Part shown: piece after piece, positions 44,267 through 56,810 of the stretch
How the letters are laid out: each line of letters opens with the position of its first letter
How positions within the stretch are numbered: position 1 is the stretch's first letter
DNA from: Corynebacterium xerosis NBRC 16721 = ATCC 373
GTDB taxonomy: Bacteria; Actinomycetota; Actinomycetes; Mycobacteriales; Mycobacteriaceae
Direction of reading: 5' to 3'
DNA length: 64,000 nt
NCBI RefSeq assembly: GCF_001552415.1
Contig: NZ_BCRD01000003.1
Coordinates: 124,001 to 188,000, forward strand
Translations under genes and position numbers: made by a program
Notes under the pieces: model-generated
What the model was told of the DNA's origin: nothing
The model's database searches: none
What the model saw: the letters and a program-made list of their open reading frames with translations, nothing else

Positions 44267-44296
44267 TTGCGATGGACATATGCCTTGTTCTACGGT
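44267..44296 (+). promoter_or_regulatory. Promoter of the upstream peptide, leaderless layout
   Basis: TTGCGA (44267-44272), 18-base spacer, TACGGT (44291-44296). The predicted transcription start coincides with the ATG at 44304. Confidence 0.55.
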
Positions 44297-44303
44297 GGCC
44301 GAC

Positions 44304-44369
44304 ATGCAGAAGAACATTCGACTTAGGCGAGTAGCCGAGGCTACGAACCCCGGTGGAGGCATGGACTGA
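44304..44369 (+). CDS. Leaderless 21-residue upstream peptide (attenuator candidate)
   Basis: ATG 44304 starts a 22-codon frame (MQKNIRLRRVAEATNPGGGMD, broken here as MQKNIRLRRV then AEATNPGGGMD) ending in TGA at 44367. It sits where transcription should begin, and its last codons form the left arm of a stem (44348-44384), so ribosome position would decide whether the stem forms. The larger gene starts 110 bases downstream. No run of Leu codons is present, unlike classic leu leaders. Existence is inferred from layout only. Confidence 0.45.
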   Translation: MQKNIRLRRVAEATNPGGGMD

Positions 44370-44384
44370 CCCCTCCACACGGGG
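44348..44384 (+). promoter_or_regulatory. Attenuator-like stem overlapping the upstream peptide stop
   Basis: CCCCGGTGGAGG (44348-44359) pairs with CCTCCACACGGGG (44372-44384) with a one-base bulge. The TGA at 44367 is in the loop. GTAGCCGAGGCTAC upstream and ACCCA/TGGGT downstream could make alternative hairpins. No T-run follows, so control might be translational or factor-dependent. Confidence 0.45.
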
Positions 44385-44479
44385 TCTCTGGCCGCTACGC
44401 ACCCACGCATCCATGGGTCGGTCCACCACAATTCTTCTCACCGGGACGATTCCCGGACCTCACCGAAGGACCACTCTGA

Positions 44480-45028
44480 ATGTTCACCACCCGCACGCAC
44501 AAGAACACTTCCACCACGATGACGTATAGCGGGAAGCGTCCCTCCGCCAAGGCGGAGGCGACCTCCCGGACGTTCACCGAGGACCCCTTCCGCGCCCGGT
44601 TCGGACACCGCCTCCCCCGCGGCCTGCGCCAGGAGGCGCGCGGCATGGACTGGCGCACGTTCATGACCACGTACTCGCCGACCAGTGGCTCGCTGGCCAT
44701 CCGCGAGTTCACGTCGACCAAGGGCCTGGCGGGCCGCTCGACGTTCCGCGCGACCATCACCACCAACCGCGGCACCGACGCCGAGCGCACCGATTTCCGC
44801 GAGGTCACCGCGATGGGCCCCGTGTCCGCGGTCACGAACCTGATGGCGGATTCCGGCTACCGCATCGAGATCCTGGAATTCCACCAGTTCGAGATCTTCG
44901 AGGCCACCGCGACGTTCCTGTACGCGACGCACAACAACAGCTCCGTCTGGGCGATGGGCTTCGGCACCACCCCCGAGGCCGCGACCATGACCGCGATGAC
45001 GTGCGCGGCCAACCGCCTCCACGGCTAG
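44480..45028 (+). CDS. Orphan LeuA-type allosteric (dimerisation) domain protein
   Basis: A 182-residue protein without a catalytic TIM barrel, whose residues about 75-175 resemble the C-terminal regulatory domain of 2-isopropylmalate synthase (REFTSTKGLAGRSTFRATIT, MGPVSAVTNLMADSGYRIEI, and a C-terminal AATMTAMTCAANRL). The domain binds leucine in LeuA, so this may be a stand-alone leucine sensor or a partner of a separate synthase. AGGA 9 bases before ATG is the probable ribosome-binding site. A terminator follows at 45067. Confidence 0.75.
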   Translation: MFTTRTHKNTSTTMTYSGKRPSAKAEATSRTFTEDPFRARFGHRLPRGLRQEARGMDWRTFMTTYSPTSGSLAIREFTSTKGLAGRSTFRATITTNRGTDAERTDFREVTAMGPVSAVTNLMADSGYRIEILEFHQFEIFEATATFLYATHNNSSVWAMGFGTTPEAATMTAMTCAANRLHG

Positions 45029-45066: not shown

Positions 45067-45094
45067 ATCACCCTCGGCGTTCGCCGAGGGTGAT
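45067..45094. terminator. Perfect hairpin before mrpA
   Basis: 13-base arms ATCACCCTCGGCG (45067-45079) and CGCCGAGGGTGAT (45082-45094) around TT, then CCTTGTT. It ends the LeuA-domain transcript. Confidence 0.75.
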
Positions 45095-53929: not shown

Positions 53930-54676
53930 TCAGCGTCGGGCATCGACCGCGGTGACCACCACGACCCCGCCCGGAGCGTCGGCGAGACGCTCGTCGCGGG
54001 CCTCGACGGCCCAGCCGTTGTCGCGGGCGATTTCCTCGGCGGCGGCCTTCTCCGCGGCGTTGCCCGGGGTGTAGACGACGGTAGTCGCCGGCCAGACGCC
54101 GAACTGTCCCTCGGGGGCGTTGCCGGTTTCGCCGCGGCCCCAACCTTCGCCACCCAGGCGCTCGGAGACCTCGGCCGCGAGGCCCTGCTCCGGGGAGTTG
54201 TTCAGGACGGTGACGCGGAAGTCCGCGCGGCGGACCTCGCCATCGCCGGTGGCACCGTCGGCACCCTCGCCGGCGGCGGGCGGTGCGGCGGGGGCCTCGG
54301 CGTCGGGGCGGCCGTCGGCGTTGCCGCCGGGGGCGACTGCGGGCTGCTCGCCGGCGGGACGGTCGCCCGCGCCGTCGGCGGGGGCCTCGGCCACGGTGCC
54401 GGAGCCGTCGCCCGCACCGTCGGCGGAGCCGGAGCCGTCGTTGCCGGAGCTCCAGGCGTAGAGGCCCCAGCCCATCAGGCAGACGCCGATGAAGATGCAG
54501 ATCATGGCCAGGCCGCGCAGGGGCATCCCACCGCCGGAGTCGGCGGGGGCGGCCTCGCGGCGGTCGTCGCGGTAATCGTCGCGGAAGTCGTCGTCGACGG
54601 GGGCGTCAACCCTGTCGTCGGCGCTGCGGTGGCGGCCGGGGCGGGGGAAGTTGCTCTGGTCATGTACGTCGGTCAC
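53930..54676 (-). CDS. LytR C-terminal domain membrane protein
   Basis: A 248-residue protein: a charged N-terminus, one membrane helix (about 53-73), a Gly/Ala/Pro linker, and a LytR_C domain (about 150-245; RVTVLNNSPEQGLAAEVSER, TVVYTPGNAAEKAAAEEIAR) outside the membrane. Such proteins flank DUF3263 genes in actinobacteria and are thought to act at the cell wall. The GTG start has no ribosome-binding site; the promoter places transcription start on it. Confidence 0.85.
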   Translation of the reverse strand: MTDVHDQSNFPRPGRHRSADDRVDAPVDDDFRDDYRDDRREAAPADSGGGMPLRGLAMICIFIGVCLMGWGLYAWSSGNDGSGSADGAGDGSGTVAEAPADGAGDRPAGEQPAVAPGGNADGRPDAEAPAAPPAAGEGADGATGDGEVRRADFRVTVLNNSPEQGLAAEVSERLGGEGWGRGETGNAPEGQFGVWPATTVVYTPGNAAEKAAAEEIARDNGWAVEARDERLADAPGGVVVVTAVDARR

Positions 54677-54682
54677 GCCCCC

Positions 54683-54712
54683 ATCGTAACGACCAACGCC
54701 CCTAACTGTTAA
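54683..54712 (-). promoter_or_regulatory. Promoter of LytR_C gene, leaderless layout
   Basis: On the minus strand TTAACA (54712-54707), 18-base spacer, TACGAT (54688-54683), then GTG at 54676. Confidence 0.6.
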
Positions 54713-54800
54713 GTAGAGGTTGAGACATGCTCCGCCGGCCCCTCTGCCGGAGCCTCCGTCGAACCATTTGTCGGCTCCTCTACCGGCCCCTCCGCCTGGC

Positions 54801-55064
54801 CTACGCCGACCCGTCGCGAAGCCTCTGCAACCTGTGCACGGTGACGGGGTCCGCGGCCTCCGCCTCTGCGGTGTCCAACAGCAGGTTCAGGCGCTGGTGG
54901 TACCGCACGGCGCCCATGCCGAACTCGGCGCGGATCGCCTCCTCGCGGCGTCCGGCCTGCCTGGGCCCGCGCCGCACGCTCGCCGACCACCGGCGCTCGA
55001 AGGCCAGCGCGCGGCGGAGGAAATCCTCGGCGGCGCTGGTCCCGTCCCTGTCGTCCCCGTCCAT
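54801..55064 (-). CDS. DUF3263 protein (small HTH-like)
   Basis: An 87-residue protein with the DUF3263 pattern: FLRRALAFERRWSAS, then REEAIRAEFGMGAVRYHQRLNLLL, which resembles a helix-turn-helix, and a C-terminal VHRLQRLRD. It commonly neighbours LytR_C and def genes and is probably a regulator. ATG 55064 has GGAGGG directly against it, so the real mode of initiation is unclear. It diverges from def (58 bases). Confidence 0.78.
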   Translation of the reverse strand: MDGDDRDGTSAAEDFLRRALAFERRWSASVRRGPRQAGRREEAIRAEFGMGAVRYHQRLNLLLDTAEAEAADPVTVHRLQRLRDGSA

Positions 55065-55110
55065 CCCTCCACTAAAGCACGGGGCGTCCGGGCGGCCGGA
55101 ACCCGCCGCG

Positions 55111-55116
55111 TAGAAT
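55111..55116 (+). promoter_or_regulatory. def: def -10 box
   Basis: TAGAAT at 55111-55116 places the transcription start at or next to the ATG at 55123, again leaderless. No clear -35. Confidence 0.45.
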
Positions 55117-55122
55117 TTCCCC

Positions 55123-55740
55123 ATGACCATCCTGCCCATCGTCGTCTGCGGCGATCCCGTCCTGCACAATCCGACCCGCCCCGTCACCGGCGACGTGTCG
55201 GAGCTGTCGGAGCTGATCGCCGACATGTACGAGACCATGGACGCCGCCAACGGCGTCGGCCTGGCCGCCAATCAGGTGGGCGTCGATCTGCGCCTGTTCG
55301 TCTACGACTGCCCGGACGAGTCGGGCGAGTTCCGCCGCGGCTGCGTGATCAACCCGGTGCTGGACACCTCGGAGATCCCCAAGGGCATGCCGGAGGACGA
55401 CGGTTCCGACGACGAGGGCTGCCTGTCCGTCCCGGGACTGAGCTTTCCGACGGCCCGCGCCACCCACGCCACGGTGTCCGGATTGGATGAAAACGGGGAG
55501 CCCGTCACGGTCGTCGGCACCGGCCTGCTGGCCCGCTGCCTGCAGCACGAGGTCGGCCACCTCGACGGTTTCCTGTACACCGACGTGCTGACGGGCCGGT
55601 GGAAGCGCCGGGCGAAGAAGGAGATCAAGCACGAGGGATGGACGGTCGCGGGCATTACATGGACGCCCGGCGTCGACGAGGATCCCTTCGGCCACGACGA
55701 GCCGGATTCGCTGGACAAGGGTCGGGAGGACGACGCGTGA
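55123..55740 (+). CDS. def: Peptide deformylase
   Basis: Removes the formyl group from nascent proteins. The 205 residues show motif 1 [10 protein letters not shown] (44-53), motif 2 EGCLSVPG (Cys100 metal ligand) and motif 3 QHEVGHLDG (His142, Glu143, His146). An acidic loop precedes motif 2, and a C-terminal extension of about 25 acidic residues is present. The stop overlaps the next gene's GTG by 4 bases. Confidence 0.96.
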
Positions 55741-56810
55741 GCCTTCCCGAATACCCGGAACAACCGGGCCTGCCCACTTCCCGCTGGGGCGTCGGCGACG
55801 TGGCGGTGGGCCGCCGCGTCATCGTGCGCCGCGAGCTGACGGCCGAGGAGGCCGCCGCGTCGGGCAAGAAGGTCACCGACGTCATCGGCCACGTGGAGTC
55901 GCTGGATCCGCTGATCGTGCGACCGTCGTCGAAAAGCCACTCCGGCCCCGGCGAGGAACCGGGCGCGATCGACTTCACCCCGTACAAGGTCCTGGTGGTC
56001 AAGGCGCTGCCGGACCAGGTGGTGCGCAACTCCGACATCCGCGCGGTGGAAACCGCCACGGCGAAGGCGTTTCCAGGCATCGAGCACACGTGGGCGGGCC
56101 AGTGGCTGATGCGAGCCGGCGACGGCATCACCGAGCGGTCCAATTCGGCGCTGCCCATCGGCCCGGGCGCGGGGACGTCGCCGGTGCCGCTCGACGACAT
56201 CCGCGCCTTCTACGCCCGGCATGATCTGCCGGTGCGCATCGCCGTGCCCGACCGCATCTGCCGGCCCGCCGAGCAGCTGGTGGCGGGCGAGGGCTGGGAA
56301 ATCGGGCCGGACATCATCGTCATGACGCGCTCGGCCGCCGACCTGCCGGAGCCCACCGCGCCGGAGTCGCTGCCGGGCATCCGGGCCGAGGTCCTCGACC
56401 AGCCCGACGAGGCCTGGCTGGACCTGTACCACTTCCGCGGCAAGGCCCTGCCCCGCCGGGCGCTGCAGCTGCTGCGCGAGGACATCGACGGCCGGATGTC
56501 CTTCGGGCGGCTGGTCGTCGACGGCGAAGCGGGGGAATCCCGCACCGTCGCCATCACCCGCGGCACCCTCACCGAATCCGGCGACAGCCGGCGCTGGCTG
56601 GGCTTTTCCGCCGTAGAGGTCGCCCCGGACCTCCGCCGCCGCGGCCTGGGCACGCTGATGGGCCTGCACATGATGCATTGGGGCGCGGCCAACGGCGCCG
56701 ACGAGTGCTACCTGCAGGTCGTATCGGGCAACGACGCCGGCGTCGCCCTGTACCGCAGCCTCGGGTTCACCGAGCACCACCGCCACCGCTACGCGGTGTG
56801 GAACGGGTGA
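55737..56810 (+). CDS. N-acetylglutamate synthase, CG3035 family
   Basis: A 357-residue GNAT acetyltransferase. The N-terminal ~90 residues form a beta-rich module ([18 protein letters not shown]) and the rest a GNAT fold with the acetyl-CoA loop [19 protein letters not shown] (about 300-318) and the C-terminal [15 protein letters not shown]. Length, N-terminal module and location behind def match C. glutamicum Cg3035, which supplies N-acetylglutamate for arginine synthesis. Co-translated with def. Confidence 0.82.

Follow-up and report, generated by a model that had tools for sequence, protein, structure and literature searches.

A conserved leader peptide and pseudoknot upstream of an orphan LeuA-type domain gene in Corynebacterium

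An orphan LeuA-type gene and its protein

The window analysed here, a stretch of 64,000 nucleotides from Corynebacterium xerosis NBRC 16721 = ATCC 373, carries a short gene that encodes linker subdomain II and the regulatory domain of LeuA, preceded by a promoter, a short open reading frame and several potential RNA helices (Table 1). A terminator-like hairpin lies directly behind the gene, which suggests a single-gene transcript.

Table 1 Features of the orphan gene and its upstream region (positions in the window)
Feature	Position	Strand	Remarks
-35 element TTGCGA	44267..44272	+	Sequence; TTG conserved in relatives
-10 element TACGGT	44291..44296	+	7 nt before leader ATG 44304
Leader-peptide frame, predicted leaderless, MQKNIRLRRVAEATNPGGGMD, 21 codons followed by stop	44304..44369	+	Conserved in relatives
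Six consecutive rare codons ATT CGA CTT AGG CGA GTA (Ile Arg Leu Arg Arg Val)	44316..44333	+	Candidate stall region
Closing helix, 5' strand GTAGC, holds Val codon	44331..44335	+	Pairs with 44394-44398; sequence and fold
P1 hairpin, 5' strand CCCCGGTGGAGG	44348..44359	+	Fold, comparison
P2, loop strand GGACTGACC, includes leader stop codon	44363..44371	+	Pairs with 44416-44424
P1 hairpin, 3' strand CCTCCACACGGGG, A44379 bulged	44372..44384	+	Fold, comparison
Closing helix, 3' strand GCTAC	44394..44398	+	Sequence and fold
P2, downstream strand GGTCGGTCC (switch strand)	44416..44424	+	Pairs with loop or Shine-Dalgarno region
Shine-Dalgarno region AAGGACC; GGACC complementary to switch strand	44466..44472	+	43/66 sequences with GGACC here
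Orphan gene for linker subdomain II and the regulatory domain of LeuA, without the catalytic barrel	44480..45028	+	
Terminator-like hairpin, 11 bp, T-rich tail	45069..45092	+	Directly after orphan gene

Relatives and structure were required to assign the family, because the window protein alone gave no Pfam match, including PF08502; it matches LeuA models weakly. Among 53 relatives, 8 match the PF08502 profile (best 5.5e-8). The AlphaFold model of the orphan protein (pLDDT 86) superimposes on residues 434-643 of Mycobacterium tuberculosis LeuA (1SR9, 3FIG) with a Z of 17 over 146 residues, and Foldseek matches it to the same protein at 1e-8; these residues comprise linker subdomain II and the regulatory domain, according to the domain limits given in PMC2704214. 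The orphan protein therefore shares with the LeuA allosteric (dimerisation) domain PF08502 its fold and an alignment over both parts, whereas it differs from LeuA as seen in 1SR9/3FIG in having no catalytic barrel and an altered leucine site.

The leucine-contact residues of LeuA were taken from PMC2704214. In the sequence alignment (PMC2704214 numbering), the GDDA loop with A565 is deleted in the orphan, A536 is replaced by Ser, Y554 by Phe, and G531 is also replaced. Since these contact residues are deleted or replaced, leucine binding should not be assumed for the orphan domain. The original prediction, that the gene encodes only the leucine-binding regulatory domain of isopropylmalate synthase, was thus right in placing it in LeuA, more specifically in the linker and regulatory part, but "leucine-binding" has to be dropped, as the contact loop is missing. 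The domain may have another ligand or may act by pairing with LeuA. A genome with several LeuA-like matches (L273, G287) has a full LeuA with the motifs HQQ and GND, where YxQH and GDD are found elsewhere; these are partly like the FHQ of the orphan, and this LeuA is possibly an intermediate.

Predicted leaderless start and leader frame

The two promoter elements are separated by an 18-nt spacer, and a further 7 nt lead to the ATG at 44304. This arrangement is conserved: of 66 relatives, 62 have TAnnnT 6-9 nt ahead of the first leader codon, and TTG occurs 17-18 nt ahead of the -10 element in 55 of 64. A generic promoter scanner gave the TTGCGA/TACGGT pair no score. The conserved -35/-10 spacing predicts a transcript 5' end at or near the leader ATG, and it backs the leaderless start that had been proposed from the window sequence, with the +1 on this ATG.

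The comparison set consists of the upstream regions of 66 non-redundant relatives, all with the same leader. The leader stop TGA (44367-44369) lies within the 12-nt loop of the P1 stem, in agreement with the earlier description of a 21-residue frame stopping in the loop of a 12-base stem, and a frame ending in the loop is found in 65 of the 66 leaders. When the start was set only by the -35 and -10 elements (6-9 nt after the -10, unique in 62 relatives), the end of frame 0 fell within the loop in 62 of 62, and the frames shifted by +1 and +2 ended there in 0 and 13, respectively. Lack of frame conservation in relatives, which had been named as grounds for abandoning the original prediction, is thus contradicted. 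Within the limits of this comparison, the pattern is that of a coding constraint combined with a predicted leaderless start. Leader lengths vary from about 10 to over 30 codons across relatives; the leader of L027 (G065:C1) reads VTKNIDLKRVAKATYPTAG.

RNA structure and pairing with the Shine-Dalgarno region

P1 has 12 pairs and one bulged A and is more stable than dinucleotide shuffles (z = -4.0; whole leader fold, z = -2.5). Its loop forms with a downstream strand the pseudoknot P2, for which 95% of the cells are paired over 62 sequences. Three of the nine P2 pairs show two-sided changes, with forms such as TGACC/GGTCG, TAACC/GGTTG and TGGCC/GCCGG, and parts of the loop and of P2 are nearly invariant among the aligned leaders. 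Over the whole structure we count 55 double-change cells (18.8 in shuffles), and the structure beats all 500 shuffles in paired cells, double-change cells and covariation score, in a control that ignores relatedness. In the window species, GTAGC/GCTAC takes the part of a base helix in the fold, and other species have a base helix at a comparable place. Such a base helix, P0, was rejected as a universal part of the element: it is significant only in 29 of 66 species, the window species not being one of them.

The switch strand of P2 can also pair with the Shine-Dalgarno region. The base following GGACC tracks the switch strand, GGACCG occurring with GTCGGTCC and GGACCA with GTTGGTCC (C-G in 32, T-A in 5; Fisher p = 1.8e-4, with no correction for relatedness). 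In the window species this pairing has only 5 bp. Modelled Shine-Dalgarno accessibility rises only slightly, from a mean of 0.32 to 0.45, when the switch strand is blocked (control blocks, 0.41), and from 0.25 to 0.31 in the window species; this modelling, made without pseudoknots, gave a mixed outcome and was set aside as support. The alternative hairpins suspected around the stem have thereby found concrete form: P2, a GTAGC/GCTAC helix that encloses the stem, and a GGTCC/GGACC pairing that involves the Shine-Dalgarno region.

Codon content of the leader

Leader codons 5-10 each make up 0.5-3.4% of synonymous use in five genes of the window, a small sample; the GTA codon, at 0.5% of the Val codons in these five genes, is among them. 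Val occurs in all 78 leaders of orphan genes in relatives, and 27 of the 28 leaders outside Corynebacterium contain VV. GTA accounts for 99 of the 169 Val codons of the orphan leaders. The Ile and Leu content varies among these leaders, and LLL is found in 0 of 78. GTA codons also sit in helices, and helix pairing could account for part of their conservation, although some species have GTT or GTG at the same place.

These observations change the view of the regulatory codons. The leader had been said to contain no repeated regulatory codon, a statement that misses both the run of rare codons and the Val present in 78 of 78 leaders. An obvious leucine signal is not supported, Val being the universal leader residue.

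Distribution and relation to known systems

At E <= 0.001, 207 of the 242 genomes of the genus contain a relative of the orphan protein, but many of the weak matches counted here correspond to the C-terminal end of a full LeuA. Many other genera of the same family have true orphans as well; outside the family, only full-length LeuA and no orphan was found among the genomes searched. The leader element is present in most Corynebacterium and in other genera of its family, almost only before the orphan gene. Indeed, a covariance model of the orphan leader, applied to 151 Corynebacterium genomes, gave 82 matches, 79 of which lie at most 285 nt upstream of an orphan on the same strand. Some Corynebacterium genomes (e.g. 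G147, G095 and G174) have the orphan with no detected element. Weak model matches at secA-like loci outside the family (L253, L257) were taken as chance.

The closest known system is the LEU element before leuA, which combines a leucine-run leader with a pseudoknot and whose mechanism is unexplained (Seliverstov et al. 2005, PMC1262725). The window genome has its own LEU element before its own leuA, with the peptide MQRALLLLCRGGARL. At 30 leuA loci, all 8 further weak matches of the covariance model fall, by position, on leuA leaders (LEU elements), and searches of whole genomes across the order gave one more before leuA in G335 and one more before leuA in G415, outside the family. In nine genomes, the orphan leader aligns with the leuA leader of its own genome at z values of 7.6-16.3, with 0 of 300 shuffles as high; the corresponding peptides are VQRVLLLGRRDGV before leuA and MKRVLVVHRRSGV or VRLFERVVVASTRSGV before the orphan. 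A simple helix search found a pseudoknot topology like that of the orphan leader in 42 of 47 leuA leaders. In G091 (G091:C12:54267-55954), leuA appears as two overlapping frames (55169-55954 and 54267-55175), perhaps a frameshift or an assembly error.

Both elements thus have a short frame with aliphatic regulatory codons, a stop in the hairpin loop, a loop-to-downstream pseudoknot and no terminator. Nevertheless, the orphan leader would control an orphan LeuA-type domain instead of leuA, its leucine run is replaced by valine, and the partner of the Shine-Dalgarno region is the P2 strand, whereas it is the regulatory codons in the LEU element. Because it lacks three of the features that define the LEU element sensu stricto, we file the orphan leader as a related variant and not as a member. 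The ilvB/ilvBNC leader of Corynebacterium and mycobacteria has a leaderless start, as predicted for the orphan leader, and likewise a mixed Ile/Leu/Val leader, but the orphan leader differs from it in its target gene, in its pseudoknot architecture and in having no terminator hairpin with a U tract.

A search of 4227 Rfam models at gathering and permissive thresholds gave no credible match to the leader. In the literature covered, the orphan leader is not among the leader peptides reported for C. glutamicum (trpE, leuA, ilvB, aroF), nor among those reported for C. diphtheriae (trp, ilvB, leu); an earlier mention in a supplement or a subscription paper is possible. Literature searches with guessed locus tags of the region gave no report on the orphan gene.

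Proposed mechanism and alternatives

We favour, with moderate confidence, a reading in which this region is a ribosome-controlled leader of the LEU kind, probably a LEU paralog, most likely stemming from a leuA duplicate, and in which the orphan is made in valine or branched-chain shortage. Comparison among relatives underlies the elements of this reading, namely the predicted leaderless start, the frame, P1, P2, the Shine-Dalgarno complementarity, the similarity to LEU and the identity of the domain; from these we infer the order of events, the signal and the translational output. A leuA duplicate would have lost its catalytic part and retained its leader together with the linker and regulatory end. 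Transcription would begin at the leader ATG, and a ribosome finishing the leader would halt in the P1 loop and cover GGACUGACC, so that GGUCGGUCC would be freed to pair with the Shine-Dalgarno region and the gene would be off. A ribosome delayed further upstream, at the rare Ile, Leu and Val codons, of which Val GTA is the constant one, would let P1 and the pseudoknot form; these would hold GGUCGGUCC, leaving the Shine-Dalgarno region free and the gene on. Scarcity of valine, or of the branched-chain amino acids as a group, would thus switch on production of the orphan LeuA-type domain. Translational attenuation by ribosome position is the most economical model.

Other explanations differ in the step at which they place control. 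In transcription attenuation, as in ilvBNC of Corynebacterium glutamicum, the leader would decide whether transcription reads through or terminates, by an intrinsic or a Rho-dependent route. Related branched-chain amino acid leaders of the genus have been discussed in these terms (PMC11857589, PMC4046766), and the stretches between P2 and the gene could admit Rho in some species. However, the + strand of the leader contains no intrinsic terminator, i.e. no stem followed by a T run, none is found after P1 in 62 aligned leaders, and the conserved complement targets the Shine-Dalgarno region, so that we consider this explanation somewhat unlikely. Since the leader yielded no intrinsic terminator, control at the level of translation is more probable than attenuation of the classical, transcriptional type. 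The ribosome-mediated attenuation put forward in the original prediction keeps its attenuator-like, mutually exclusive pairings, which comparison supports.

The leader might instead report translation rate, or provide general translational coupling, with no amino-acid specificity. Six rare codons in a row, three of them for Arg, would slow any ribosome, and leaders differ in their Ile and Leu content; nevertheless, every leader contains Val and Leu runs persist in the related leuA leaders, which makes this explanation unlikely. It is quite improbable that the peptide matters little and that a regulator recognises the pseudoknot, even if a helicase-like family, ML1624, was suggested for the LEU element (PMC1262725) and parts of the loop and of P2 hardly vary: a role for translation is indicated by the strict frame, a stop codon that always falls in the loop or close to it, the leaderless spacing and a Val common to all leaders. 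Stalling caused by the nascent peptide and not by uncharged tRNA, for which the original prediction had pointed to Arg-Leu-Arg-Arg or the NPGGG end, seems highly improbable. NPGGG or HPGGG ends and an RV motif are conserved within much of Corynebacterium, but neither proposed stall point is conserved outside the genus, where the leader ends in RRSGV or TRSGV and NPGGG is absent. Moreover, NPGGG is encoded in the P1 stem, and pairing can explain it.

LeuA consumes 2-ketoisovalerate, the shared precursor of valine and leucine. A LeuA-type domain made in valine shortage could therefore restrain LeuA, and we infer, as a tentative and rather unlikely extension of the ribosome-position model, that a leuA duplicate without its enzyme part had its leader re-aimed from leucine to valine, and that the domain joins LeuA and restrains it in trans, sparing 2-ketoisovalerate for valine. 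If true, this would be a branch-point regulator for which the enzyme itself had supplied both the allosteric domain and the attenuator, and it points to a coupling of valine and leucine synthesis at the precursor common to both. Corynebacterium is a genus used in industrial amino-acid production. For a protein family that is so far uncharacterised, the analysis also offers a first hint at function.

The orphan leader would represent a second, widespread branch of the still unexplained actinobacterial RNA switch class LEU, with another codon signal and another target. In Streptomyces coelicolor, mutations of the ilvB leader codons had no effect, and the effects of leuA leader-codon mutations were inconsistent with classical attenuation (PMC1262725); because of these results, codon sensing is unproven even for the LEU prototype. 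With this second branch, natural variation can be used to tell the sensing of codons from the binding of a protein, an issue that dates back to 1999-2005.

Five Corynebacterium relatives (L031, L104, L105, L111 and L112) form a clade in which the element is degenerate and the orphan gene is kept. The switch strand is CGTCAGTCC in all five, and L031 lacks a leader frame with its stop in the loop. This clade provides a natural test of switch loss.
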